From contig CACXMZ010000010.1 of NCBI GenBank assembly GCA_902768975.1, positions 1 to 50,061 of the forward strand: DNA of 50,061 bases, in the 5' to 3' direction. This stretch comes from an uncultured Coriobacteriaceae bacterium (GTDB lineage: Bacteria > Actinomycetota > Coriobacteriia > Coriobacteriales > Eggerthellaceae). Below the pieces are notes generated by a model. It was not told the DNA's origin. It made no database searches and worked only from the letters and a program-made list of their open reading frames with translations. How positions within the stretch are numbered: the stretch's first letter is position 1; every line of letters starts with the position of its first letter. Below are positions 74-20,297 of the stretch, in pieces. The position numbers and the translations under genes are program-made.

Positions 74-733
74 ATGGGTAAGCTTCTAAGTAGGTATCTA
101 TATTCTCGCCTTAGTTTGTATGCCCTTGTTCTTGCCCTCAATGTTTCACTTTTACTAAATCTAGCAACTATTGCGCTTGGTAGTCCCGCTTTGCCGCTTT
201 GGGCCCTAATTGCCTGCGCGATAGTATTTGTTCTTCTTTTGCCACTTACTGTTAGCTTGTTTGCACGCGAGTTGAGTTCTTTTACGCTAATCAATCCACC
301 TGAAAAGCTTGGTACTAGTATGTTTTTCAAGAAAGCAAGCCTAGGTGTTGGCTATGCTTTTCTGCTTCTTGTAGTTTTTTGTACGGTATGCGGTGCCGTT
401 GGCCTGGCGGTATCCCTTACCGCCTTGCCAACTTTAGGCATTCAGAGCGCTCGTGACATTATTATGCTTGCTGCGCAAGTCCTTGCTGTGCTTGCCATTC
501 CTATTCCTGTCATGCTTCTTGTTCGTTATGTGCTTATTCGCAGGCGTGAGCATCCTGTTGTGGCTCTTTCAAGCTATAAGGGCGTGGTGTGGCCGCTTTT
601 AGCATTTGGTTCTGCAATCTTTTTTGGTGTAGGCTGGCTTCTTGCTACTTTTCTTCCAACTGCACTTTCTGGGGTATTTTGGCTCCGTATGGCTTCTCTA
701 TTGCACGATTGTATGCGTGAGCTGCTCAAGTAG
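74..733 (+). CDS. multi-pass membrane protein of unknown function
   Basis: The product is 219 residues, almost entirely hydrophobic. About five membrane segments can be seen, near residues 12-38, 40-64, 88-116, 126-153 and 168-190, with short basic loops such as RRRE between the fourth and fifth. I do not recognise a family or catalytic motif. The ATG is chosen because an AGAGGGGG Shine-Dalgarno lies 6 bases upstream, and a possible -10 (TATAAG) is at 22-27. The 3' end overlaps or abuts the start of the giant Rhs gene, so the two are probably co-transcribed. The sequence does not say whether this protein helps export the toxin or has an unrelated membrane role. It is a confident gene of unknown function. 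Confidence 0.75.
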   Translation: MGKLLSRYLYSRLSLYALVLALNVSLLLNLATIALGSPALPLWALIACAIVFVLLLPLTVSLFARELSSFTLINPPEKLGTSMFFKKASLGVGYAFLLLVVFCTVCGAVGLAVSLTALPTLGIQSARDIIMLAAQVLAVLAIPIPVMLLVRYVLIRRREHPVVALSSYKGVVWPLLAFGSAIFFGVGWLLATFLPTALSGVFWLRMASLLHDCMRELLK

Positions 734-3700
734 TGATTGCGAGATCACGGCCGACCTTAAACTTGATATAGAACTTTTACAGAGGCGCTCGCACAAGGTG
801 GCAAATAGCGCAGTGGCCTGCTTGCTTAGCGCAGCTTTGGCAATTTGTATGGTAAGTACCGATTCCATTGCTTACGCAATTGAAGTAGCCGCGGAAGCAC
901 TTGAGCAAGCTGAGGCGCAAGCGGCGCAAAACCAAGAACAAAAGATTCAAGAGCAAGGACAGGAACAGGAAGAGGGATTATCAGATTCGGTTGATGATCC
1001 ACAACAAGATAGCGAGCCAATTGATAAAGATAAGGCTCAAGAGCAAGATATTAGCGAGCCCGAAGCTGACGGGACTTCTAATAAAGAGGCAGATGCTGAC
1101 AAGACTGAAGACGAAGCAGATAAACAAGAGCCCCCAGAGCCTGTAGAGCCTGAAGACTACTATGAAGTGGAAGAGCCTGAAGGCATACCTGTTGCTATAG
1201 AAGACGAAGCCACCATCTATCAAATTGACGAGACGCACTTTACTACCATCATTGGTGGGGTGGACACAGCCTATATTGATGAAGAGGGCACAATCCAAGA
1301 AATTGACAACACACTTGAGCCTTATCGCGACGGCTCTGAGATTGTCTATGAAAATGCATCAAATGCCTTTACTGCTCAAGTACCAGCGCTAATGGACGGC
1401 AAAACTCAGGGTATTACAATTTACACGCCTGATGGCTGGCCTATAGAGCTTATTCCTCTTGACGGTAACTTTGAAACGAGCGTAGCAAAAGAAAGCGCCA
1501 TACGCTTTACAGAAGTGCGCGAACATGTCGACTATCAATACACTCTTGTTGGTTCGCTTATTAAAGAAGATATTATTCTCACCGAGCCTGTTGAGCCCCA
1601 AGAATTCAAAACCTTGCTTAACTTACCTGATGGCCTTTTGGCGGCACTTGAAAATGGCATTATCTCCATTCGTGATACAGACAACAATGAAGTCATGGCG
1701 CTCGCTGCACCTCTTATGGAAGACGACGCTGGAAAACTCTCAGATGAAGTTGAGCTTAAACTTGAACAAACAAGTCAAGGCCCCGTAATTGCTATTGAGC
1801 CGAATTGGGATTGGGTTTTATCAGACGAGCGTGTCTATCCAATTCGTATTGACCCAACGGTCAATATTGCTTCTTCTGCAGTAAGGGTTGCTTGTGTTGA
1901 GCAAAGTTGGCCCGACCTTGTTATTGGTGAAAACGGTTATGCTTACGTGGGCTTTGATGATGGTGTTAAAAGTGGTACGGGGGACTTCAACTATGGTGTG
2001 GGACATGGTCGCTGTCGCATATTTGTAGCTATCAACTATGACTTTACCTATATTATGAGTGAGGCGCGTATTGACTCAGCCACGTTTTGGCTCTACCAGC
2101 GCCGTGCGTACTCAGAGGGTAGCACCGAACTTCAACTCTACCGCATTACCCAGTCGTGGAATTTCGACAACCTTTGCTGGAATACTCAGCATGCAGGTGG
2201 CGCCACCGAGTTCGTTGATTCACAAATGGCAAAGTCAAGTCCTGGCTGGGTTGGCTGGGATGTGCGTGATGTGGTGGTTAACTGGGTGGCCGGGGCTTAT
2301 GCTCAGTACGGCTTTTCCCTCTGGGCGAAAAATGAAGGCTGGGCACAAGCTGAAATCTTTGACAACCGTTTTGATACCCATCCGCCAGAGTTTCAAATTG
2401 ATTGGTCTATTCCAGACCCCGTAGATGAAAACTATTCGCTTAATGACACTAGCATTGAAGTGCGCCCCATGGTTGAGCGCAGCAAAAGTGGACTTACGGT
2501 GTTTGACGGTGCATTTTCAGATGGTCTGGCAACGCCTCGCGCAAATGTAGATTGGGAGCTCAAGCCAGGTGACAAAAGTGGTCAGGCATATGCTTCGCGT
2601 TCCTATAAATATCCTGATTCAACTGACTTTGAAGAAAAGTTTCCCAATTCAACAAAATATCGAGACAAGCTTTCTAACTGGCAATCTGGCATGGTGGTGG
2701 GTCTTGATAAAGACAAGATTTATCACTTTGAAGCGACGGCAAGTCTTGATGGGCAGGTGGGCAATACTGCCAAATCAGATACGTTTTTGGTTTACACCGT
2801 AAAAGCAACTGATACGCTTCCTTCTGTAGCAAGCTACTATGGTGTGCCCTTAAAGACTATTGCCAAAGACAATAAAGTACAGGATATGCTCATTGTTAAT
2901 GGCGAAACTTTATTTGTAAGAAACCCCAAGACAAGCAAAGCTTATTCCCCTAAGAATCTTTCAACTGACCAAAAGAAACAAATTGACTCAGCGCTTATTG
3001 GCCGAGGTCTTCACTGTGAATATGGCTTCGAGCCTGTCAATATGAACACAGGTAACTTTGTACTTGAAGCAGTAGATGCCACCATTCCTGAAACTGAAGG
3101 TAGCTTTGACTTAAGTCGTACCTATAACTCTAAGGCGGTAGCCTCACCTTCTGCTTTTGGACGTGGCTGGTCATTTGCATGGGGGGATAGCCTTTCAAAA
3201 ACTGAAGACGGGCAGTATGTCTATGCGGCATCTGATGGCAAAGTCTTATTCTTTGAAGCGCAAGGTGACAGTTTTTCTTGTGCGCTTAACCCAGACCTTG
3301 AACTAAAGGTCATTAAGAAAAAAGATAAGCCAGACACTTACGTCATTGAATCGCGTGATGGTAGTGCTATGGCTTTTAATGCCTGGGGACTTCTTGAGTC
3401 AACTACTTCACCTCTAGGGCTTAAAACTACTATCAAGCGCAATGAAGAGATGCAGGTAGAAAGTGTTAGCTCTCCTAATGGTTATAGCTACTCATTTGAA
3501 TACGGTGATTTTGGGCTTATTAAGCAAGCAACACTTCCTGACGGCACAACGCTTAAGTATGCCTACGACGATGACGCAAACCTTGTATCAGTAACAGATC
3601 AGTGTGGTGGCGTGGTGACGTATACCTATGACGGGGCTGGTCTGATGAAGGCGTGGTACGACGCTGATGGCAACCTCGTCTGTGAAAACACCTATGACAA

Positions 3701-6700
3701 AGACGGGCGCGTTACTGCCCAACTTGATGGTAACGGGGGAGTATCGAGCCTTAGCTATTCAGAGGGTCAAACACAAGCAACGGATGCCAATGGCAATACG
3801 ACTGTCTATACCTATGACAGTCTTATGCGCACTACAAGCATTACCTATCCTGATGGCTATGTGGCCACAAAAGCATATGATGGCAACTCTAACTTAATCG
3901 AAGATGACGGCTGGACCTATACGTATGACGAACGTGGTAATTGCACAAGCAAAACGTCCCCTGATGGTATCAGCACTACTTATTCTTTTGATGACAAGAA
4001 TCGTATTTTGCAAACTGTCTATGCCGATGGTGAAGTAGTTGCCAATACGTACAACGATGCTGGCGACTTAATTGAAGTAGCAAGTTCAACAGGGGCTCGC
4101 ACTTCTTATTCTTATGACAACATGCACCGCAAAACGAGTGAAGTAGACGTTGATGGTGTGAGCTTAAGTTATACCTATACAGGCTCCCAGGTGGCAAGCA
4201 TGACAGATGCGCTTGGCAATACCGCGAGCTTTAGCTATGACCAGATGGCGCGCAACACCTCAGCTACCGACGGGGCTGGCAATACAACGTCAATTACCTA
4301 TGATGCCTGTGGTCGTATTGTTGCTGAAACTGATGGCGCAGGAGCTACCACAAGTTATGCGCTTACCAAGGCAGGTCTCGTGTCTGCCATTACTGACGCT
4401 AACGGCAACACTACGTCTTTTGGCTATGATGCCATGTATAACGTCACGTCTATGACAGACGCTGCGGGCAATAGCTCCTCAATCACCTATGATGCGCTCA
4501 AAAACGCACTAAGCGTTAGTTCGGCAACAGGTGCGCAACTAAGTTACGCCTATGATGCGCGCAGTAACCTTATCTCTATAGTTGATGCTAACGGCAATGA
4601 AACCGTGCGCACCTACGATGCCCACGGCAATGTAACAAGTGTGACCTATGCCAATGGCGCTACGCAAAGTATTGCCTATGACGCAACCTTCTTTAAGCCC
4701 ACTAGCACAACCGATGTTTTGGGCAACGAGCAAACCTATGTCTATGACGCACGCGGGAATCTTACCTCTACTACCTTGCCCAACGGCGCAACTATTCAAT
4801 ATACAATTAACCCAGGCTCTCAACTTGCAGCTACGACAGATGCACGTGGTACCACAACAAATTATGCCTACACTACAGCAGGCCGTGTCAGTGAAATAGA
4901 CGTCGCTGGCAGGGCAGCGTCTATTGCCTACGATGCTTCAGGAAACATTGCAAGTATTACTAATGAACTTGGTCTTGTTACAAGCTTTACTTACGATGGC
5001 GCTGGACGCATGCTGAGCATGACCGATTCTGAGGGGCGCACGACAAGCTATGCCTATGATGGCGCAGGCCGCCTTATCTCAGAAACCGATGGTGAGGGTA
5101 ACACGACGACATATACCTATGATGGGCTAGGAAACCTCACTAGCACAACCGATGCTAATGGCAATACGACTACCTATGTTTACGACGTACTTGCTCAGCT
5201 TATTTCCCAAGTAGATGCCTTAGGTGGCACACAAAGCTTTAGCTATGACGCTGGTGGCAACCTCATTAGTGCCACTGATGAGCGTGGCAATACTACAAGT
5301 TATACCTATGACTTAGTTGGCAATCGCTTGAGCGAAACTGATGCTGCAGCAAGCACCTGGAGCTATACCTATGATGCTATTGGAAATGTGGTGGGCACCA
5401 CACTTCCTACGGGGGAAGTCGAGACTGCCACTTATGACGCTGCGGGCAATATGCTTACGCTTACCGATGCCGCAGGTCTCTCCTTTGAGATGACCTATGA
5501 CGAGTTGGGCAACCTTACTTCAATTACAGATTCGTATGGAGCGCATGAAACCTATACCTACGATGAAGTTGGCAACGTAATAGCTGAAACTGACTCGCTC
5601 GGTAGACAGGCAAGCTATACCTATGACGCGTGGGGCCAGCTTATAGAAGAAACAGGTCTTGATGGTGCAACGACTTCCTATGAATACGACGCAGCCGGAA
5701 ACCTCTTGTCCACAACTGACGCGCTTGGCGCCAAAACCAGTTATACCTATGACGGCTCTAAGAACGTTGTAAGCGTAACTGATGCGCTAGGAGCTAGCAC
5801 ACTGTATGAATACGACAAGGCAAATCGCTTAACGAAAGAAACCAATGCGCTTGATGCAAGTATTACCTATGGCTATGACCCGGCAGGAAACATTGTTGGT
5901 CTCACTGACGAAGATGGCTATGAGTGGGCCTATGCATTTGACGCATTAAACCGCCTTGTCCAAGAAACAAATCCCTTGGGTAATGCAACGGCGCTTACCT
6001 ATGATGCCACTTCAAACATTACCTCAATTACTCGTCCTGAAGGTGATGTGTCAAGTTACACCTACGATGCACTGGGCCGTCTCATAAGCACAACCGATGG
6101 CACAGGAGCTACGTGGTTAGCAAGCTATGACGCTTATTCAAATGTAGTAACATCAACTGATCCTTTAGGTGCTACCACCACTAATACCTACGACTTGCAC
6201 GGAGCACTTTTAAGCTCCACAGATGCGCTCGGAAATGCTACCACCTACACGGTGGATGCCCATGGCAATACGACTTCGCTTACACGTGCAAATGACTCAA
6301 GTTATACCTATGCTTATGACGTAGCTGACCGCCTGACAAGCTTAGAGACTCCTTTAGGTTATATTCGCAGCCTTGAGTATGACGCGGCAGGCAATGTTGT
6401 CAAAGAATCAGATAACTTAGGGCGCCTGCAAACCTATACGAGTGATGCGCTTCATAACTTAACTCAAGTAACTGATGCCAAGGGTGGCGCGTCCACTTAC
6501 ACCTATGACCTTTTAAGTCAGCTTACGAGCACAACTGACGCTCTTGGCAATAAGACTAGTGTGACGTATGACCCGCTAGGCCGCATTACCGCTATCCGGG
6601 ATGCTCAAGAGGGTAATACTTCTATCCAATACGACAACCGTGGCAACATCCTTCGGCAAATCACTCCTGAAGGTCGCTTTACTACGTATTCTTACGATGG

Positions 6701-9700
6701 GGTAGGAAATGCCATAAGTGCCTCTGATGGCTTAGGTAACACCTATAACTATAGCTATGACAAAAACTCTCGATTAACCGAAGTAACTGACCCGTTAGAG
6801 CATGTGCAAGCAAAGCTTGTTTATGATGCTACAGATAACATTACAAGCGTCACTGATGCATTAGGCCATGCAACAAGCTATACCTATGATGGGCTAGGAA
6901 ACACCACAAGCATTACTGATGCTTCAGGGCATACTACCACCTATACCTATGACGTGCTTGGCCAGCTCACAAAGGCGGAGCTTCCCAGTGGAGCTGCTAG
7001 TACTTATACCTATGACGTGGTGGGAAACCTCACTTCTGTAACTGATGCACTGGGCAACACTACAAGCTATGCCTATGATGCAGAAGACAACCCCATCTCA
7101 AAGACAAGCCCTGCGGGTGCTATCGAACAAATTGAATATGACCTTGCAAGCCGCGTGAGCACCATTACCGATGCAGCTGGCAACGCCACCCGCTACTCAT
7201 ACGATGAGCTCAACGAAGTGGTTGAGAAATCCTATGCAGGGCCTACAACTGATGAGCCGGTACTCTACACCTATGATGCACTCTCACAAATGACAGGACG
7301 CGCTGATGCAACAGGTAAGGCAACACGCACCTACGATGAGCTTGGGCGCACCATAGAAGAGACAGATGGGGCAGGCAATACCTTAAGCTATGCCTACGAT
7401 GCTGATGGCAATCTTTCCAAGGTAAGCTACCCCGATGGGGAAGTGGCAAGCTACACCTACGATAAGGCAGGAAATCTCACAGAAGTTAAAGCATCAGATG
7501 GTACCTACACCTATGAATATGATGCTGCCACCAACCCCATCAAGCTTACCCGCCCTGATGGCTCAACGACAACCTACGCTTATGATGATGCCAACCAAAT
7601 AACTAAGCTTGTCAACACTGATGCAGCTGGCAAAATCATATCAAGTTATGCCTACACCTACGATGAAGTAGGCGACATTGTCAAAGAAGACATTCAAGAA
7701 ACAGATACACAAGGCAAACTTACCAAAGCAAAGCGTACCTATACCTATGACGATGACAGTCGCCTTATTAGCTTTACCGAAGAAGGGGATGCGGGCAAGC
7801 TTTCTCGCGCTTACGAATATGATGATGTTGGCAACCGCACTCGCGAAATCCGTGAAGATGATACGGGCAAAGACATAATCACCTATGCCTATAACGACGA
7901 CAATATACTCATTGAGGCTAAGAGTACGGTAGGCGGCACCACAACCTATGCTTATGACGATGCCGGCAAACTCACTTCAAAGCAAGTAGATGGCCAAGAA
8001 GAGATCACTTATGAGTATGGTGTCGAAGAGCGCCTTGTTGCTGTTAAAGAAGGTGGGCGTCTGGTAATGGCTGCCACCTACGATGGTGACTCTAATCGTG
8101 TCTTTCAGATGAGTAGACATCGCACCATCACAGTTGACCCAGAGACCAAGTCCCTTCCCAAGACAGCAGATACACCTACTCTTATTACTTTTGCTATTGC
8201 CATGGGCGCTGTTTCTGCCTTAGGCTTGGGAAGCCCTGCTGCAGTGGCTTCTGGCGCTAATGCGGTAGCAGCTCTTTTCTTCCCGCTTGGCCCGACTGAT
8301 TCAAGTTTTCCTGTATCTGATAAGGACGTAAAGACATATGCCAACTCAGCTCTTCGCAATGGCTGGGGCACTATACCGCTTTCTCGCATTCATGTAGAAA
8401 CCGACTTTGAGTCTATTGCTTATGTCAACTCAAGTCTAGGCGAAGTCACACAGGTCTTTGCCCAATCTAGTAGCTATACAGGGGCTTCTAACCACCTATA
8501 TGGGCTAAGTCGTCTTGCAAGCATTAATAGTGGCACGTCCACCTATCACCTACTTGATGGTCGTGGTTCAACGACGGCTGCTATCCAGGGCACAAGTGTT
8601 ACTGCCAACTATTCTTGGGGGGCATATGGTGAGCTTCTTCGTGGTACGTATACCGAGTCGCCCTTCTATGGATATGATTCAGAAGACTATAGCCCCGCCA
8701 CCGGCACTCTCTACCTGCGTGCTCGCTATCTTAATATGACAGAAGGCTCATTTGGGGTGGAAGACTCCTATCTCGGCGACACCTTTACACCCCAATCCTT
8801 AAACCTTTATGCCTATGCATATGGCAACCCTGTCAGTTATGTGGACCCCACAGGACATTGGGGCCAGTGGTTTAGCAATGTGGTAAGTGGCGTTAAGTCC
8901 TTTGCCTCAAATGTTGTCTCGTCAGTTAAAAGCTTTGCGACAAGTGTCTACAACACGGCAAGATCTGTCGCATCATCTGCCTATACGGCTGTGAAAAATA
9001 CTTACAACGCGGTTAAGAGCTGGGCTACCTCAACGGTTAGCTCATTTACGAATTCATACCGAGCTACTACTGTGCGGGCAGCATCAACCTATATCTCTTC
9101 GCAGCAATCCTATGCTTCGTCGGGCGGTTCATATTCTTATAATCCTGTATCGGCTGCGCAAGCAGGTATCTATAGCTTGTTTACTCCAGTTGCGGCTAAA
9201 GCCCTTAACTTTACGGTTGGCTTTGCGCAAAAGATTTATGAGAGTTGTTGTGTTGGCAAGCAATACCTCAAAGACCATGCCGAAGAAGCAAAGACCATTG
9301 CTCATACTGCGCTTGATGTTGTAAGTATGGTCCCTCTTGTAGGAACTGTTGCAAGTGGCATTAATGCAGTGTGGTATGCCGCAGAAGGCGACTATGCCAA
9401 CGCAGGTCTTTCAGCTGTATCTATGATTCCAGGCGTTGGTACAGCAGTTAAGGGTGGCACACTGGCAGTGAAAGCTACGAGTGCTGCTATGAAGCTCGCA
9501 CCTACCGCTGCCAAAGCCATTTCAGGACTTGTTAAAGCTGCTCCTAAAGTTACTTCTGGCATTTCAGAGGCTATTTCAAATACCGTTTCTGTTGTTTCAG
9601 GTGTGAAGAGGGTCGGCAATGCCGCAAAAACTATTTCACCTTCAGTAAATCAAGCAACGCAGTCCATTAAGAAGAAAAGCATTACCGAGAAGCGAATTGA

Positions 9701-10043
9701 AATACTGGCTCAAAATAGGGCGAGAGGTAGGGCATATGAAATCGAGAAGTTTAGTGACTTAAGGAGCCGCATCGCCAATGCCGAAGAGCAGATTACTCTT
9801 GTAACCCCTTCAGGCGGTAGAGTAAGAGTTGATGGTATTGCTCAAAAAGCAGACGGGACTATCGTTATCGAAGAATATAAATCCTCGCCAACAGCATCTT
9901 TGTCAAAAAATCAGGAGAGGGTTTTTGAACAGATTCGTATAGAAGGCGCACGAGTTGTTGGAAAAGGGAAAGGTGATATCTTTACAGAGGGTTTTGAGAT
10001 TCCTCCTGGAATAAAAGTCAGAGAGATAAGACCAGGTAGTTAA
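717..10043 (+). CDS. giant secreted WapA/Rhs-type polymorphic toxin
   Basis: A protein of about 3,100 residues. Order by nucleotide position: signal-peptide-like segment (hydrophobic core near 805-875), Glu/Gln-rich low-complexity stretch (895-1200), WapA-like N-terminal region with a DNRLRE-like module (about 1860-2405), LysM-like module (about 2790-2925), DUF6531-like start of the Rhs shell (about 3010-3290), YD repeats (3481-8115), LPKTA followed by a hydrophobic stretch (8154-8230), Rhs core ending in YVDPTGH near 8860, then a variable tip. The last ~120 residues have VDG...EEYK, the D...ExK arrangement of PD-(D/E)xK nucleases, so a DNase tip is likely. Family knowledge: WapA-like proteins are Sec-exported and deliver C-terminal toxins to neighbouring cells. 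The start is uncertain. GTG717 keeps basic residues (RRSHK) before the hydrophobic core, while GTG798 has a better Shine-Dalgarno (AGAGG). A TTG at 642 is open but unlikely. Immunity-like genes follow directly. Confidence 0.9.
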   Translation: MSCSSSDCEITADLKLDIELLQRRSHKVANSAVACLLSAALAICMVSTDSIAYAIEVAAEALEQAEAQAAQNQEQKIQEQGQEQEEGLSDSVDDPQQDSEPIDKDKAQEQDISEPEADGTSNKEADADKTEDEADKQEPPEPVEPEDYYEVEEPEGIPVAIEDEATIYQIDETHFTTIIGGVDTAYIDEEGTIQEIDNTLEPYRDGSEIVYENASNAFTAQVPALMDGKTQGITIYTPDGWPIELIPLDGNFETSVAKESAIRFTEVREHVDYQYTLVGSLIKEDIILTEPVEPQEFKTLLNLPDGLLAALENGIISIRDTDNNEVMALAAPLMEDDAGKLSDEVELKLEQTSQGPVIAIEPNWDWVLSDERVYPIRIDPTVNIASSAVRVACVEQSWPDLVIGENGYAYVGFDDGVKSGTGDFNYGVGHGRCRIFVAINYDFTYIMSEARIDSATFWLYQRRAYSEGSTELQLYRITQSWNFDNLCWNTQHAGGATEFVDSQMAKSSPGWVGWDVRDVVVNWVAGAYAQYGFSLWAKNEGWAQAEIFDNRFDTHPPEFQIDWSIPDPVDENYSLNDTSIEVRPMVERSKSGLTVFDGAFSDGLATPRANVDWELKPGDKSGQAYASRSYKYPDSTDFEEKFPNSTKYRDKLSNWQSGMVVGLDKDKIYHFEATASLDGQVGNTAKSDTFLVYTVKATDTLPSVASYYGVPLKTIAKDNKVQDMLIVNGETLFVRNPKTSKAYSPKNLSTDQKKQIDSALIGRGLHCEYGFEPVNMNTGNFVLEAVDATIPETEGSFDLSRTYNSKAVASPSAFGRGWSFAWGDSLSKTEDGQYVYAASDGKVLFFEAQGDSFSCALNPDLELKVIKKKDKPDTYVIESRDGSAMAFNAWGLLESTTSPLGLKTTIKRNEEMQVESVSSPNGYSYSFEYGDFGLIKQATLPDGTTLKYAYDDDANLVSVTDQCGGVVTYTYDGAGLMKAWYDADGNLVCENTYDKDGRVTAQLDGNGGVSSLSYSEGQTQATDANGNTTVYTYDSLMRTTSITYPDGYVATKAYDGNSNLIEDDGWTYTYDERGNCTSKTSPDGISTTYSFDDKNRILQTVYADGEVVANTYNDAGDLIEVASSTGARTSYSYDNMHRKTSEVDVDGVSLSYTYTGSQVASMTDALGNTASFSYDQMARNTSATDGAGNTTSITYDACGRIVAETDGAGATTSYALTKAGLVSAITDANGNTTSFGYDAMYNVTSMTDAAGNSSSITYDALKNALSVSSATGAQLSYAYDARSNLISIVDANGNETVRTYDAHGNVTSVTYANGATQSIAYDATFFKPTSTTDVLGNEQTYVYDARGNLTSTTLPNGATIQYTINPGSQLAATTDARGTTTNYAYTTAGRVSEIDVAGRAASIAYDASGNIASITNELGLVTSFTYDGAGRMLSMTDSEGRTTSYAYDGAGRLISETDGEGNTTTYTYDGLGNLTSTTDANGNTTTYVYDVLAQLISQVDALGGTQSFSYDAGGNLISATDERGNTTSYTYDLVGNRLSETDAAASTWSYTYDAIGNVVGTTLPTGEVETATYDAAGNMLTLTDAAGLSFEMTYDELGNLTSITDSYGAHETYTYDEVGNVIAETDSLGRQASYTYDAWGQLIEETGLDGATTSYEYDAAGNLLSTTDALGAKTSYTYDGSKNVVSVTDALGASTLYEYDKANRLTKETNALDASITYGYDPAGNIVGLTDEDGYEWAYAFDALNRLVQETNPLGNATALTYDATSNITSITRPEGDVSSYTYDALGRLISTTDGTGATWLASYDAYSNVVTSTDPLGATTTNTYDLHGALLSSTDALGNATTYTVDAHGNTTSLTRANDSSYTYAYDVADRLTSLETPLGYIRSLEYDAAGNVVKESDNLGRLQTYTSDALHNLTQVTDAKGGASTYTYDLLSQLTSTTDALGNKTSVTYDPLGRITAIRDAQEGNTSIQYDNRGNILRQITPEGRFTTYSYDGVGNAISASDGLGNTYNYSYDKNSRLTEVTDPLEHVQAKLVYDATDNITSVTDALGHATSYTYDGLGNTTSITDASGHTTTYTYDVLGQLTKAELPSGAASTYTYDVVGNLTSVTDALGNTTSYAYDAEDNPISKTSPAGAIEQIEYDLASRVSTITDAAGNATRYSYDELNEVVEKSYAGPTTDEPVLYTYDALSQMTGRADATGKATRTYDELGRTIEETDGAGNTLSYAYDADGNLSKVSYPDGEVASYTYDKAGNLTEVKASDGTYTYEYDAATNPIKLTRPDGSTTTYAYDDANQITKLVNTDAAGKIISSYAYTYDEVGDIVKEDIQETDTQGKLTKAKRTYTYDDDSRLISFTEEGDAGKLSRAYEYDDVGNRTREIREDDTGKDIITYAYNDDNILIEAKSTVGGTTTYAYDDAGKLTSKQVDGQEEITYEYGVEERLVAVKEGGRLVMAATYDGDSNRVFQMSRHRTITVDPETKSLPKTADTPTLITFAIAMGAVSALGLGSPAAVASGANAVAALFFPLGPTDSSFPVSDKDVKTYANSALRNGWGTIPLSRIHVETDFESIAYVNSSLGEVTQVFAQSSSYTGASNHLYGLSRLASINSGTSTYHLLDGRGSTTAAIQGTSVTANYSWGAYGELLRGTYTESPFYGYDSEDYSPATGTLYLRARYLNMTEGSFGVEDSYLGDTFTPQSLNLYAYAYGNPVSYVDPTGHWGQWFSNVVSGVKSFASNVVSSVKSFATSVYNTARSVASSAYTAVKNTYNAVKSWATSTVSSFTNSYRATTVRAASTYISSQQSYASSGGSYSYNPVSAAQAGIYSLFTPVAAKALNFTVGFAQKIYESCCVGKQYLKDHAEEAKTIAHTALDVVSMVPLVGTVASGINAVWYAAEGDYANAGLSAVSMIPGVGTAVKGGTLAVKATSAAMKLAPTAAKAISGLVKAAPKVTSGISEAISNTVSVVSGVKRVGNAAKTISPSVNQATQSIKKKSITEKRIEILAQNRARGRAYEIEKFSDLRSRIANAEEQITLVTPSGGRVRVDGIAQKADGTIVIEEYKSSPTASLSKNQERVFEQIRIEGARVVGKGKGDIFTEGFEIPPGIKVREIRPGS
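3481..8115 (+). repeat. tandem YD (Rhs) repeats inside the toxin gene
   Basis: This coding stretch consists of back-to-back units of about 20-21 codons built around a Tyr-Thr-Tyr-Asp core (TACCTATGAC-like at DNA level) followed by Gly-Asn-Leu/Val and Thr-Asp-Ala. Length divided by period gives roughly seventy units. YD repeats form the beta-strand shell of Rhs/Tc cages that encloses the toxic tip. Neighbouring units share short near-identical DNA runs, so recombination between them and assembly collapse are both plausible. Confidence 0.9.
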
Positions 10044-10074: not shown

Positions 10075-10659
10075 ATGAGTAGGGATGATGATAATAAGCT
10101 GGATAAAGCAATCGTTAAAGAAGGCGTGAGTCGCGGATTCAAAACTGTTGCAGGTTTTCTTTGGAGAAGTGACGGTGATCGATTTGATACTATCATTGCT
10201 TCGACTGTGAATAGAAGAAATAGAATCACTTATCTAATTAAGCAAAAGAAAATGTCTTACGACGACCTGTTCTGGGATATCATGGGTATGCATTCTAATC
10301 GAAATGAGCGTATGTCGCTTAGAGCTAATGGCGCTTTCGCTTCTCCTTCATACACAATCGAGCATGGTCAGATTGAGAATGTAATCCCATTTACGCCAGA
10401 GTCGGTTTCCGCTCTTGTTGATAGGCTTGAATCATCTTTATCATTCTTTACGCAAACCCATTTAGATCTAAGTCGTTATATTACAGATCATCCTGACCAT
10501 GCGCTTAATAATGAAGAATTACGCTGTCTTGCATACCTTGATATGGGAGATATTGATGGGGCTAGGCAACTTGCTTTGGCGAATTTAGGCAATGAAGGCT
10601 TCGCCAATGAAGGGAAAGGCTTTTTTGAAAGATTATTACTAATATATGGGGGGGTGTAG
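10075..10659 (+). CDS. probable immunity protein to the Rhs toxin (copy 1)
   Basis: A 194-residue soluble protein with no signal peptide or membrane segment. It starts 31 bases after the Rhs stop with an AGGGAG Shine-Dalgarno. It is a clear paralogue of the next gene: both share LWRS-x-G near residue 30, a Y-x-I-x(3)-K-x(2)-YDD-x-(F/Y)W-x-IM block near 60, an F-x-(S/T)PSY-x-IE block, LSRYI followed by PD, and LAYLDM-x-D near the C-terminus. Polymorphic-toxin loci nearly always encode the cognate immunity protein directly downstream, so that role is inferred from position. I do not recognise a named Imm family. Confidence 0.75.
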   Translation: MSRDDDNKLDKAIVKEGVSRGFKTVAGFLWRSDGDRFDTIIASTVNRRNRITYLIKQKKMSYDDLFWDIMGMHSNRNERMSLRANGAFASPSYTIEHGQIENVIPFTPESVSALVDRLESSLSFFTQTHLDLSRYITDHPDHALNNEELRCLAYLDMGDIDGARQLALANLGNEGFANEGKGFFERLLLIYGGV

Positions 10660-10666
10660 TGTGTAA

Positions 10667-11269
10667 ATGGATTGGCGAAGTATAGAAGAATCAATTATCG
10701 AGGAAGCTGAAAAATATGGTTTTGAGTTTGACCAAGTTTCGCTATGGCGTAGCAATGGTATTCATTATGAAAGCGTATCAATTGAAGACTGGCGTGCCAC
10801 AGGAAACCTTACCTATATAATCGAACGGAGAAAGCTGGTCTATGATGATATGTATTGGAATATCATGGATATAGAACCAGAGCAGTACGTAGACTGTCAG
10901 TCCGAAAACAACGATGCGTTCTCTACCCCTTCTTACAGAATAGAGCGTGCAACCATTAATGGTGCAGCCGCATTTACAAAAAACTTTATTTCTGAAGTAG
11001 TTAATCGTTTTGATTTATCCTTACTGGCTTTTCAGAAAAAAACACCAGAATTAAGTCGATATATTATCGAATATCCCGATGATTATATGGATGGCAATAT
11101 ACCTCTTCGCGTGCTTGCCTATTTGGATATGAGGGATTTTAAGGCAGCAAAGTCGCTAGCGAGGAAAAGCATTAGGGAAGACGATAAGGTATTAGGTAGA
11201 CAAAATATGTTTACCCCGCTTTCCCGTGCAGATAGATTCTTTCTTGAGAGGTTTCTTGAACGACAATAG
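10667..11269 (+). CDS. immunity-like paralogue (copy 2)
   Basis: A 200-residue paralogue of the preceding gene, starting 7 bases after its stop. The GGGGGG run at the end of copy 1 can act as its Shine-Dalgarno. The shared blocks listed for copy 1 are all present but overall sequence has diverged considerably, so this is an old duplication, or copies acquired with different toxin tips. It may protect against a related toxin tip from neighbouring strains. No catalytic motif or membrane segment is visible. Confidence 0.75.
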   Translation: MDWRSIEESIIEEAEKYGFEFDQVSLWRSNGIHYESVSIEDWRATGNLTYIIERRKLVYDDMYWNIMDIEPEQYVDCQSENNDAFSTPSYRIERATINGAAAFTKNFISEVVNRFDLSLLAFQKKTPELSRYIIEYPDDYMDGNIPLRVLAYLDMRDFKAAKSLARKSIREDDKVLGRQNMFTPLSRADRFFLERFLERQ

Positions 11270-16693: not shown

Positions 16694-16726
16694 ATGATAA
16701 TCAGCAGTTATCGGAGGTTACGTGTG
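16694..16726 (+). repeat. left 33-bp inverted repeat (recombination site, SD and start)
   Basis: Identical to the reverse complement of 19299-19331. It contains GATAA-TCAGCAG-TTATC (16696-16712), a typical crossover core with an asymmetric 7-bp spacer, then GGAGG (16713-16717), six bases and GTG (16724-16726), where identity ends. Just outside, ATCTACC is also shared with the right side apart from a 1-base length difference. Confidence 0.9.
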
Positions 16727-17866
16727 GCTCCAATTATTTACATAGGACGATATGCTAGTGATATTTATAGGAGCAACCTATTTTCGGGCTCTATTGTTTT
16801 CCAGGGAATTACGAATCGAAATAAAGGGGATTTTTCCTATTGTTATGACCACAAAAGACTTGTTGAAAGCAATGAGGATAAAGAAGAAAAAACAGCTTAT
16901 ATAAGAGATAGAATTAATTATTTTCTTCACTATAACCCAGAAACACGATTTATGTTTTTCGCCCAAAACTATTTTGAAGAGTTTCTGCCGGATTTAGACA
17001 GAAACTTATTTGTAGGCCTAAATGAAAAGTCAATTAATAGCCTGCTTGATTCAAAAGTTTTTTCACGTTTATGGATGAGAAACTACGTTCCGTCCCTCCA
17101 CTATTACGTAACTACATATGCAGATGTATCGATTAAAAGAATTAATCAGGTTTTTAATAAAAGCAATGCTTTTATTATTCAAGCAGATAACGGGCGCGGC
17201 GGTGATGGATCGTATATATTCCGTAACACAAGAGAGCTCGATTCCTTTATGAAAAATACGCAAACTTCAAAGGTGCGGTTTTCAAGAATGATTGTCTCAC
17301 CATATTACGAAGACTCTATACACATCAATCAACATATCATAATTTTTGATTCCTTGATTATAGCTCTCCAGCCCTCAATTGAAATATTAGTCGAAAAAGA
17401 ATGCCGACTTCACTATTTAGGCGCCGACTATGCGCAGTTCAACGATTGGGATCAAGCTGTTCAAGCAAGAAAAGATATTAATAAGAAGAGCGTTTCTATT
17501 GCCAAGGCAATGCAGAGGGCAGGATTTAAAGGAGTAGCTGGCATAGACTATCTATACACCAATAATGAGCTATTCTTTATCGAAATTAACCCTAGATTTC
17601 AGGGCTCAAGCCCATTGCTATCTTGGGAGCTGTCAAAGAAAAACCTCCCAGACTTATACATGCTCAACTATCGTGCTTTTACTAATAAACCTCCCAGTAA
17701 TAACGAGAAGGATGAGCTTGAACGGCTGGTATTGAATAAAAAAATTGAAAAAATATACGGTGACCCTGAACGTGCCAATGCTGCAACCATAGACAAACTA
17801 GATGGCGCGCTAGAAGAGTATTTGTATTGCTCTCCGAACGCTCGGCTTGGATACAGAATTACTTAG
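16724..17866 (+). CDS. ATP-grasp ligase, expressed arm of the inverton
   Basis: A 380-residue protein with an ATP-grasp fold: a nucleotide-binding loop near residues 150-165 (QADNGRGGDGSYIF), a central domain, and the metal-binding EINPRFQGSS motif near residue 286. It therefore likely ligates a carboxylate to an amine or thiol with ATP; the substrate is unknown. It resembles peptide- or natural-product-modifying ATP-grasp enzymes more than a primary-metabolism member. GTG16724 is preferred because GGAGG lies 6 bases upstream. An in-frame ATG at 16694 would add ten residues encoded by the repeat but has no ribosome site and only a ~15-base leader. The C-terminus overlaps the opposing gene by 8 bases. 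Confidence 0.8.
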   Translation: MAPIIYIGRYASDIYRSNLFSGSIVFQGITNRNKGDFSYCYDHKRLVESNEDKEEKTAYIRDRINYFLHYNPETRFMFFAQNYFEEFLPDLDRNLFVGLNEKSINSLLDSKVFSRLWMRNYVPSLHYYVTTYADVSIKRINQVFNKSNAFIIQADNGRGGDGSYIFRNTRELDSFMKNTQTSKVRFSRMIVSPYYEDSIHINQHIIIFDSLIIALQPSIEILVEKECRLHYLGADYAQFNDWDQAVQARKDINKKSVSIAKAMQRAGFKGVAGIDYLYTNNELFFIEINPRFQGSSPLLSWELSKKNLPDLYMLNYRAFTNKPPSNNEKDELERLVLNKKIEKIYGDPERANAATIDKLDGALEEYLYCSPNARLGYRIT

Positions 17867-19301
17867 GCAACTCATCGCTATGCTGCTGCAAAGAGCTTTT
17901 GTTATGAGGACTGATATCCACGATGAATAACGGGGTATTATACGGATAGGCTTTTGAGAGCTTCTTATCGAGCGCCATAACAACGCCCGCAGCAATTAGA
18001 TTATCCAATATTGAGCTGATATGGGATTGTATTGAGTCAATATTGCTACACACGATGTTGAATAGTATCGGATTAAAAATCAAAACAGCGTCACTTGGCA
18101 AAAGATTTTGAAGTATCTCGAAAAAGATTAGTATCTGTTCTGGAGAAAGCAATGGGATAATACTTGTAAATAAAAGCGAGTTCGTGCTTCTACGTACCTC
18201 AAAACTAATTCCCTGCTCCTCCAGCTCGCTAATAATCCTTTCTTGCAATTCTTTATAGTTTTCATTTTCTTCTGGATACAGCTCAGCATCAAATGATAGG
18301 AGTGCAGGACCTTTTTCTCCATAACGAATCCTTAAAGCATCACGAATAGGCTCAATGTATGAAAAACCGAGGAGAACACGCGAACGAGCAAAACTATTAT
18401 TCGATTGTGCGGTACTCACAATGGACTGGGTAATAATGTTTAGTAGTCTGGAACGCATTTTGCTATCCACGCTGCTATTCGGTATATTATTCAACAATTT
18501 CGCAAGCAGCTCTGCCCTCCTGTATTGGCCATGCAGCGCGAAAGATTGGAACGCCTCAAAAAGAATGTCATCAGGAATTGCTTCATTTAAAACAATATGC
18601 GTATTGAACAAAGGAAAATACTCCCATGCTTCCCTAAACTGATCTTTGTATTCCCCTAATACCGACACTATTTCGTTTCCAGTACAAGGGTTTTGCTGTT
18701 CTGCAACAAAACTAATGCCATTACAAGATAAAAGGTATTGCGCCGAATAAGAATAAAGGGTCTGGCGCAGTGATAACTCGCAACTTTTGAATGTGCAATT
18801 TATGAATGTTGAATAATCAAAGGCCATATCTCTCATAGAGCATGACAAAAAAGAACACTCGTCAAAAATAGCCTCTTCGAAGACTGTATGAAGGAATGAA
18901 GAGTTGGCAATTTCGCAGTTATAAAACCTCGTACCCACAAAATCGCAGGTAACAGCAGATATGTTCGATATTTTGCAATTTACGAAGCTTGCGTAATTGA
19001 AAAAGCAGGATTCGACGCCGCCGCTAAATTTTATATTGCAATTCGAAAAAACTGTATGTTGCATATTAGAGTCCAAGAGGGCAACATCTTCAGAGGATAA
19101 AGTAATAGAGCAGTCGGAAAACACCGCACCTGTACAAGATATTCCAACAATGCGGCCTGAAATATCACAATTGATTAGTGTCATTCCCGAATAAACATTA
19201 CCGCGTACATCAATGTCGCTACCATATTCAATTCTTGCCCCGTCTAATTCCACACGTGGATGATACTTTGCTCCACATAGTTGTGATAAATCAAGACTCA
19301 C
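17859..19301 (-). CDS. pentapeptide-repeat protein, silent arm of the inverton
   Basis: A 480-residue protein. Residues about 20-190 have irregular pentapeptide repeats (A-x-F-x-x-C / S-x-F-x-N-C style, unusually cysteine-rich), which would fold as a right-handed quadrilateral beta-helix. Residues about 200-480 are helical with no recognised motif. GTG at 19301-19299 lies 6 bases after GGAGG inside the right inverted repeat, exactly as for the ATP-grasp gene, and an ATG 30 bases upstream is also in frame. The flank beyond the right repeat has only a poor promoter candidate on this strand (TATAAG without a fair -35), so the gene is probably off here and on after inversion. Function unknown; pentapeptide proteins include DNA mimics and defence sensors. 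Confidence 0.75.
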   Translation of the reverse strand: MSLDLSQLCGAKYHPRVELDGARIEYGSDIDVRGNVYSGMTLINCDISGRIVGISCTGAVFSDCSITLSSEDVALLDSNMQHTVFSNCNIKFSGGVESCFFNYASFVNCKISNISAVTCDFVGTRFYNCEIANSSFLHTVFEEAIFDECSFLSCSMRDMAFDYSTFINCTFKSCELSLRQTLYSYSAQYLLSCNGISFVAEQQNPCTGNEIVSVLGEYKDQFREAWEYFPLFNTHIVLNEAIPDDILFEAFQSFALHGQYRRAELLAKLLNNIPNSSVDSKMRSRLLNIITQSIVSTAQSNNSFARSRVLLGFSYIEPIRDALRIRYGEKGPALLSFDAELYPEENENYKELQERIISELEEQGISFEVRRSTNSLLFTSIIPLLSPEQILIFFEILQNLLPSDAVLIFNPILFNIVCSNIDSIQSHISSILDNLIAAGVVMALDKKLSKAYPYNTPLFIVDISPHNKSSLQQHSDELPK

Positions 19302-19331
19302 ACGTAACCTCCGATAACTGCTGATTATCAT
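19299..19331 (-). repeat. right 33-bp inverted repeat
   Basis: Perfect reverse complement of 16694-16726, with the same core, GGAGG and GTG on the minus strand. It ends 57 bases before the start codon of the recombinase gene. Confidence 0.9.
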
Positions 19332-19388
19332 CGGTAGATGTTATTAAAGTATTCTTTATTGCTTATATGGGTAAAGAGGAGGTCCCAA

Positions 19389-20297
19389 ATGCGGCTAAAC
19401 TATAATCATGTTGTTGCTTTTCTTGATTACTGCCAAAAAGAAAAATGTTTAAGCTTAAATACTATTCGTGCATACAGAAACGATTTGAATCATTTCTTTG
19501 AATGGCTGAGAAGTGAAGAGCATTGTAACGTTTGTGATAGCGTTTCCTCATTGTACTTAAAATACTTGAATGAGCATTATTCTCCTAGAAGCGTAAGGCG
19601 AAAGATGGCATCTTCATGTGCAATGTTTAACTATCTTATCGATGCTGGGTCGCTCAATCTGAATCCGTTTTTAAGGGTAAATTATAAGATTTGCATGCCG
19701 CGTATGCTTCCTAAAACAATCTGTATGGGAGATCTTGAGGCGCTCTTCTCTTTTGTTAAATGGCGACACGATTCCTTGTATACTCGAGATAAGGCAATTA
19801 TTGAATTATTGATTGCAACAGGTCTTCGAGTTTCAGAATTAGTTGCTCTTGATGTATCGGACTATGATTCCAAGACGAGCACATTGAGAGTGTTTGGTAA
19901 GGGATCTAGGGAGCGCGTCATCCAGGTTGAGAGTAATGCTGCGATTTATTCACTAAAGCATTATATGGGTATATGTGACAATCGGCTTGGGGTTAACTGC
20001 GATAGGCCGCTTTTTTTGAATCGATTTGGAAAACGCTTAAGCGATAGGGCGGTACGCGATATTGTTAACAAGCGCGCTAAAGAAGCTGGTGTTCAAGCGC
20101 ATATTACTCCATATATGTTTCGCCATACATTTGCAACCCTACTCTTGGAGGAAGGAGTTGATGTACGTTATATACAGCATTTTTTAGGGCATAGCTCTAT
20201 TAAGACAACGGAAATATATACTCATGTCTCTGTGGCAAAGCAGCGTGAAGTGCTCCGTCTGCATAACCCGCGTAACGTAATTAATGGAGGGAGTTAA
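19389..20297 (+). CDS. tyrosine recombinase, probable invertase of the adjacent cassette
   Basis: A 302-residue XerC/D-like site-specific recombinase. The N-terminal SAM-like core-binding domain (residues 1-85; LDYC...NTIRAYRNDL) is followed by the catalytic domain with R147 in ATGLRVSEL, R245 in YMFRHTFAT, H268 in LGHSS and nucleophile Y277 in TEIYTHV. The first His of the HxxR box is Tyr here (YMFR), a substitution I believe occurs in some family members. ATG19389 has GAGGAGGT 6 bases upstream; an in-frame ATG at 19338 has none. Adjacency to the 33-bp repeats makes it the obvious invertase. A truncated relative lies at 11300-11510. The 269 bases downstream (20298-20566) hold no feature I can support. 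Confidence 0.9.
   Translation: MRLNYNHVVAFLDYCQKEKCLSLNTIRAYRNDLNHFFEWLRSEEHCNVCDSVSSLYLKYLNEHYSPRSVRRKMASSCAMFNYLIDAGSLNLNPFLRVNYKICMPRMLPKTICMGDLEALFSFVKWRHDSLYTRDKAIIELLIATGLRVSELVALDVSDYDSKTSTLRVFGKGSRERVIQVESNAAIYSLKHYMGICDNRLGVNCDRPLFLNRFGKRLSDRAVRDIVNKRAKEAGVQAHITPYMFRHTFATLLLEEGVDVRYIQHFLGHSSIKTTEIYTHVSVAKQREVLRLHNPRNVINGGS

Follow-up and report, generated by a model that had tools for sequence, protein, structure and literature searches.

The closest described relative of the toxin analysed here is WapA of Streptococcus suis, which has the same domain order and whose gene lies downstream of genes for a SecF-like protein and a class B sortase (SrtB) (PMC12704120). Deletion of srtB blocks WapA killing and SrtB binds the LysM/DNRLRE part of the toxin; the sorting signal was not identified in that study, and its authors considered the data insufficient to confirm the anchoring reaction (PMC12704120). 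Edman sequencing placed the N-terminus of WapA-CT1 at VTSYVNDLY, which defines a cut at D↓VTSYVNDLY (arrows denote cleavage throughout) (PMC12704120). Among substrates of class B sortases, AbpA is anchored by the oral streptococcal SrtB via LPKTS-AVK with no hydrophobic tail and with a cut at T↓S, the residues L, P and T of this motif being essential and S being variable (PMC4974636). The Clostridioides difficile SrtB cuts (S/P)PXT↓G and leaves LPETG uncut (PMC4155245), and IgA1 metalloproteases carry an atypical LPXTG at the N-terminus (PMC9637739).

How Gram-positive Rhs toxins of more than 300 kDa are displayed on the thick wall and released from it is the question addressed here, using an Rhs locus of an uncultured Coriobacteriaceae bacterium. 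The whole stretch of DNA that was analysed, hereafter the window, comprises 50,061 nucleotides (GCA_902768975.1, contig CACXMZ010000010.1). An original prediction made from its letters had pointed to a sortase-like LPKTA signal with a hydrophobic stretch inside the Rhs shell, whose cleavage might separate a wall-anchored shell from the core and toxin.

Organisation of the Rhs locus

The Rhs ORF covers positions 642-10043 of the forward strand, on which all features of the locus described below are located, and encodes 3133 amino acids when counted from TTG 642, with the true start probably lying further downstream. The Sec signal peptide, with a predicted cleavage site ...LQRRSHKVANSAVACLLSAALAICMVSTDSIAYA↓IEV (774-878), is the top hydrophobic segment in the whole protein. 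It is followed by a DNRLRE domain (aa 441-569, 1962-2348; NF033679, 62.8 bits), a LysM-like wall-binding domain that scores under the curated cut-off (aa 718-756, 2793-2909; PF01476, E 0.0012), a DUF6531 lid (aa 797-871, 3030-3254; PF20148, E 4.9e-17) and a YD-repeat shell matched by PF05593 in 37 stretches and ending in YDGDSNRVF (3279-8105). A variable insert, delimited by homologue alignments, reaches from the last YD repeat to the YVN strand (8106-8408) and precedes the Rhs-associated core (aa 2661-2739, 8622-8858; TIGR03696, 39.2 bits), whose end DPTGH↓ would be an autocleavage site by analogy. The variable C-terminal domain (9669-10040) is assigned as the toxin by its position and gave no match in a Pfam search; its tip contains a D...E-Y-K pattern, which we take to be reminiscent of PD-(D/E)XK nucleases. 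Judged by this architecture, with a Sec signal, DNRLRE, a weak LysM, DUF6531, YD repeats, the Rhs core and a variable C-terminus, the protein qualifies as a predicted WapA-type Gram-positive Rhs polymorphic toxin. Two of the cleavage sites mapped in S. suis WapA-CT1 have counterparts in it, namely E↓PVNMNTGNF at the start of the DUF6531 lid for the first site and E↓SIAYVNSS (8409-8435) for the middle site, D↓VTSYVNDLY (PMC12704120).

Downstream of the toxin, two small genes (10075-10659 and 10667-11269) resemble each other by eye and are without a Pfam match; by their position and mutual similarity they are likely immunity genes. Directly upstream, an ORF at 74-733 encodes a multi-pass membrane protein of 219 amino acids without a match in Pfam and NCBIfam searches, which in position, size and hydrophobicity only may correspond to the SecF-like gene of srtB-secF-wapA loci, since a sequence comparison with the Lactococcus SecF-like protein detected no similarity. 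In the window and in Firmicutes this upstream gene stands apart from the Rhs gene, and in several other coriobacterial and termite-gut homologues (L005, L006, L009, L010 and L011) a multi-pass stretch is contained in the Rhs ORF itself, before the Rhs signal peptide. No sortase gene adjoins the Rhs gene in the window, which begins at the contig edge (nt 1), 73 bases upstream of the membrane-protein gene.

The LPKTAD motif and the helix of the variable insert

As originally described, LPKTAD (aa 2505-2510, 8154-8171) and the hydrophobic run TLITFAIAMGAVSALGLGSP behind it (aa 2513-2532, 8178-8237) are in frame and located about 630 residues from the C-terminus, between the last YD repeats and the Rhs core, with no basic residue behind the run. 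In trials with composition-shuffled versions of the protein, LPxT[GA] occurred anywhere in 12% and LPxT[GA][DGE] in 2.7%. The combination of LPxT[GA] with a hydrophobic segment behind it was obtained in 0.08%, a figure that is not usable alone because the hydrophobic segment has a separate, older explanation. The wider class-B-type pattern [LSNP]PxT is present three times in the protein, and the bare tetrapeptide is therefore weak evidence unless it is conserved. When compared with a classical LPXTG signal, the pentapeptide is there, with A in place five, and the C-terminal location and the basic tail are absent, the hydrophobic run being homologous to a helix that is not part of a sorting signal. 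A search of the bacterium's own genome with the TIGR01167 profile left the LPKTAD site unlisted even at E 10.

The older explanation of the run comes from the homologues. In other Eggerthellaceae, other Coriobacteriia, Propionibacteriaceae and Clostridia, a variable insert is found between YDGD[GS]NRVFQ and the strand Y[VL]N[DS], with lengths from 45 residues in one Lachnospiraceae protein up to more than 200 in others. A helix of the pattern x-x-F-x-Y-G-F-x-x-G is present in most of the longer inserts, with F in 13, Y in 14 and G in 15 of 18 sequences. As F-x-Y-G-x-x-x-G the helix is seen in lactic-acid bacteria as well as in Rhs proteins of Coriobacteriia, Propionibacteriaceae and Clostridia. 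The run of the window aligns to this helix without gaps, with a replacement of Y by F and retention of the second G and of the P twenty residues on. Over 19 residues its mean Kyte-Doolittle value is 1.70, as compared with 2.00 in the same-genus homologue (G032), whose run contains a Lys, and with 0.48-1.88 in the others, most of the homologous helices being clearly less membrane-like; the C-terminal anchors of its own genome, at 1.91-2.96, lie just above it. A PDB sequence search returned solved Rhs/teneurin structures that match both flanks, and among the matches listed none of the best stretches was in the insert. By these alignments, the run is an inherited, ancestral insert helix, grown unusually hydrophobic in this genus, with LPKTAD located ahead of it in the variable N-terminal linker of the insert, and the proposal that it serves as the membrane part of a sorting signal had to be abandoned.

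A classical sorting signal, in which the run would halt Sec transport in the membrane and a sortase would cut LPKT↓A, thereby freeing the shell from the core and the toxin, is hence regarded as very unlikely. Its hydropathy just under that of the genome's own anchors and the occurrence of N-terminal LPXTG motifs in IgA1 proteases are compatible with such a signal, but it would have to operate without a basic tail, with a Lys inside the corresponding run of G032, with a helix that is mostly less membrane-like in homologues and at a site that TIGR01167 does not recover. In addition, a stop-transfer segment would strand the core and the toxin inside the producer, and thus the release originally envisaged from cutting such a signal would be defeated. 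This stranding would not arise with a class B sortase that works on a soluble site after export.

Conservation of the motif in relatives and in sortase-linked WapA proteins

The sole homologue from the same genus, G032, is 64% identical over the segment and reads ALSPKTAD-ALLLVVFGMKLG, with the motif before the same helix. The five codons of PKTAD are identical between the two (15/15 nt), with 57% of the conserved residues of the segment being synonymously changed, and the length of this identity is judged to be that expected by chance in such an alignment. Among 17 further inserts of other homologues, LPxT[GA] or P[KN]T[AGS]D was not found in any, and at the five coriobacterial loci whose upstream DNA is readable (L106-L110), which lack the motif in their inserts as well, no adjacent sortase is present. 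Conservation of LPxTA is thus not general in coriobacterial Rhs proteins, and what holds of it is SPKTAD in G032 and, at the same place, KSPxT in sortase-linked WapA proteins. By the criterion set in the original prediction, the limited conservation would count heavily against it, but these sortase-linked toxins are the more telling comparison.

Such loci were found by a plasmid search in Lactococcus raffinolactis (L125), Enterococcus raffinosus (L126) and a Streptococcus plasmid (L129), with a Streptococcus phage (L128/L132) in addition, and at all four an adjacent class B sortase gene and a membrane-protein gene are present, the order in L. raffinolactis being class B sortase, a membrane protein of 221 amino acids and WapA. 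The inserts of these loci read RKSPKTSPNGEENSLFWYGF, RKSPNTYTKGDGNSLFWFGF and [RK]KSPYTAP[SA]GEENS[LI]FWYGF, and that of a viral contig (L131) repeats RKSPKTSPNGEENSLFWYGF. K-S-P-x-T is invariant in E. raffinosus, L. raffinolactis, the Streptococcus plasmid (three copies), the Streptococcus phage (two copies) and the viral contig, always ten residues ahead of the helix F, and the linker before it is indel-rich and variable in length. A substrate of a class B sortase would be expected to conserve [LSNP]PxT in homologues linked to such a sortase, and KSPxT is indeed present in all such WapA proteins read; in a scan for [LSNP]PxT the insert KSPxT was the only position common to all sortase-linked proteins scanned. 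Overall, the insert helix is preceded by [LS]P[KNY]T both in this genus and in all readable sortase-linked WapA proteins. The sortase-type motif of the original prediction is thereby retained as one that is not unique to the window, separated from the classical sorting signal in which it had been placed.

The weight of this co-occurrence depends on its independence. The Firmicute sequences are mutually 68-73% identical over the segment and therefore represent about one lineage, so that the independent evidence amounts to about two lineages in all. Wider searches, covering Actinomycetota, the order, the class of the Clostridia locus, viral contigs, and phage and plasmid collections, yielded few further relatives, and the class B sortases encoded by other plasmids (Butyrivibrio, Niallia) or by one viral contig had no WapA adjacent to them. 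Shuffling of the linkers gave [SLN]PxT in 2-9% of trials per sequence.

These figures also bear on a reading in which LPKTAD is a look-alike, namely a chance or structural (turn or helix-cap) motif in a proline/threonine-rich linker before the ancestral helix, with no sortase action, the protein being held by its LysM-like domain and processed solely by Rhs autocleavage. Taken by itself this reading is a real possibility, somewhat under an even chance, and it is nearly as likely as that of a sortase site. The helix needs no sorting to explain it, the 17 other inserts lack the motif, linker shuffles produce such tetrapeptides at the above frequency, a LysM-like domain is present and no adjacent sortase is known. 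A look-alike would, however, leave it as coincidence that KSPxT is invariant in the otherwise variable linkers of four loci adjacent to class B sortases with none in five unlinked loci, and that [LS]PKTAD is common to the members of the genus. A further argument in favour of a look-alike comes from the sequence [ND]PKT[NTS] right behind LysM, which resembles the class B sortase motif NPxTN and is found in the window as NPKTS (aa 761-765, 2922-2936), as a conserved LysM-end sequence, and in L005, L006, L007 and L010. This NPKT-type motif recurs in unlinked coriobacterial and Lachnospiraceae Rhs proteins and is absent at that place in sortase-linked WapA proteins; its conservation in unlinked proteins means that P-x-T motifs can be kept for other reasons.

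A class E sortase-like LAxTG in the linkers of four inserts (L005, L006, L010 and L052; nominal P = 0.005 against shuffles) was dropped as post hoc, and it also failed on its uneven spacing to the helix and its absence from the later inserts L114 and L119.

With the S. suis-type srtB-secF-like-wapA loci the window shares the Sec signal peptide, DNRLRE, LysM, the DUF6531 lid, the YD shell, the Rhs core and the variable toxin, together with a membrane-protein gene directly upstream and the same insert, whose helix has F-W-Y-G in the relatives that were read. It differs from them in that no adjacent sortase gene is known, in having [LS]PKTAD as compared with KSPxT, and in a 219-aa upstream protein without detected sequence similarity to the Lactococcus SecF-like protein. 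In the Streptococcus plasmid (NZ_CP135437.1, 453-23694), the N-terminal wall-binding part of WapA and the Rhs shell are separate ORFs, and behind them come several displaced Rhs C-terminal cassettes in which copies of one insert recur. The Streptococcus phage record (OP662532.1, 59522-75941) carries the whole class B sortase/SecF-like/WapA cassette and a second Rhs cassette, and hence such loci can travel on phage-like elements.

Sortases and wall anchors of the genome

The genome to which the window belongs encodes three sortases on other contigs (C4 and C7), one of them of class B (TIGR03064, 179.8 bits as compared with a cut-off of 153.75). Its predicted C-terminal anchors read SPNTAD, TPKTAD, TPKTSD, GPKTSD, TAKTGD and AAKTGD, behind which come a hydrophobic segment and an Arg run, and the internal LPKTAD fits this local anchor dialect. 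Most predicted C-terminal wall anchors of this genome (on contigs C2, C4, C6, C8 and C9 of G000) have [xP][KN]T[ASG]D or AKTGD in place of LPxTG, and the pilin-type LPSTG is seen only in two proteins of C7, near a class C sortase.

A candidate internal class B sortase site

LPKTAD is tentatively read as a class B sortase site inside the protein, through which the shell would be tethered while the core and the toxin are held non-covalently, a reading to which a little less than an even chance is given. Following Sec export, a class B sortase would recognise the motif as an exported, soluble site and, by analogy with known substrates, cut between T2508 and A2509. The N-terminal part, comprising the LysM/DNRLRE region and the shell, would then be joined to peptidoglycan, and the C-terminal part, with the rest of the insert, the Rhs core and the toxin, would stay in the shell non-covalently until delivery, like other cleaved Rhs pieces; any role in release would likewise follow from such a cut. 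The hydrophobic helix may be a part of the insert fold or a contact with the target membrane, not a stop-transfer anchor.

Known substrates offer partial precedents. AbpA shares the LPKT core, its fifth residue is variable, and it is recognised by the oral streptococcal class B sortase without a classical membrane tail, but its motif is C-terminal with cleavage demonstrated, whereas that of the window is internal and a candidate. The C. difficile SrtB substrates share the S-P-K-T core with G032 and Enterococcus, and the C-terminal anchors of the window genome also have P(K/N)T, although those substrates are C-terminal, with a hydrophobic domain, a charged tail and G at position five. With the IgA1 metalloproteases the likeness is a sortase motif far from the C-terminus (PMC9637739), the difference being that theirs is N-terminal and in an unrelated protein. 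Further points argue against a sortase site: its first residue is L in one member of the genus and S in the other, the C. difficile SrtB does not cut LPETG (PMC4155245), the fifth residue is other than G, and in S. suis SrtB bound the LysM/DNRLRE part and the mapped middle cut is at the YVN strand (PMC12704120).

The last point leads to another account, in which it is autocleavage at [DE]↓xxxYVN, a short distance downstream, that makes the functional cut near the insert and parts the shell from the core, leaving the upstream motif irrelevant. The Edman-sequenced N-terminus of S. suis WapA-CT1 at VTSYVNDLY supports it (PMC12704120), as do the acidic residue that 17 of 19 homologues have ahead of the corresponding strand and E↓SIAYVNSS in the window. 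This account is nevertheless considered improbable, in view of a site mapped in one protein only, an assignment not fully consistent with the TDPSG site named in the same study (PMC12704120), and the conservation of KSPxT, which it leaves unexplained. Either or both of the cuts, at the sortase site and at the YVN strand, could separate the shell from the core.

More cautiously still, the sortase-site reading may be extended to Sec-exported Rhs/WapA toxins, in which the loop that joins shell and core would contain an internal site for a class B sortase, [LS]PxT, that lacks a functional membrane tail. Through this site the shell would be fastened covalently to the wall, with the core and the toxin attached only non-covalently, and it would be the missing signal behind the need of WapA killing for srtB. 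KSPxT/[LS]PKTAD offers a single, precise candidate signal where the srtB study found none (PMC12704120). If this holds true, class B sortase chemistry would extend to an internal site that has no tail and lies within a folded shell.

A putative invertible switch elsewhere in the window

Elsewhere in the window, a perfect 33-bp inverted repeat (16694-16726 and 19299-19331) spans the start codons of two convergent genes within 16694-19331, which encode an ATP-grasp protein on the forward strand and a pentapeptide-repeat protein on the reverse strand with the common N-terminus MIISSYRRLRV. A tyrosine recombinase gene (19338-20297) begins a few bases past the inverted repeat, and the segment 16694-19331 looks like an invertible switch that would select between two alternative proteins.
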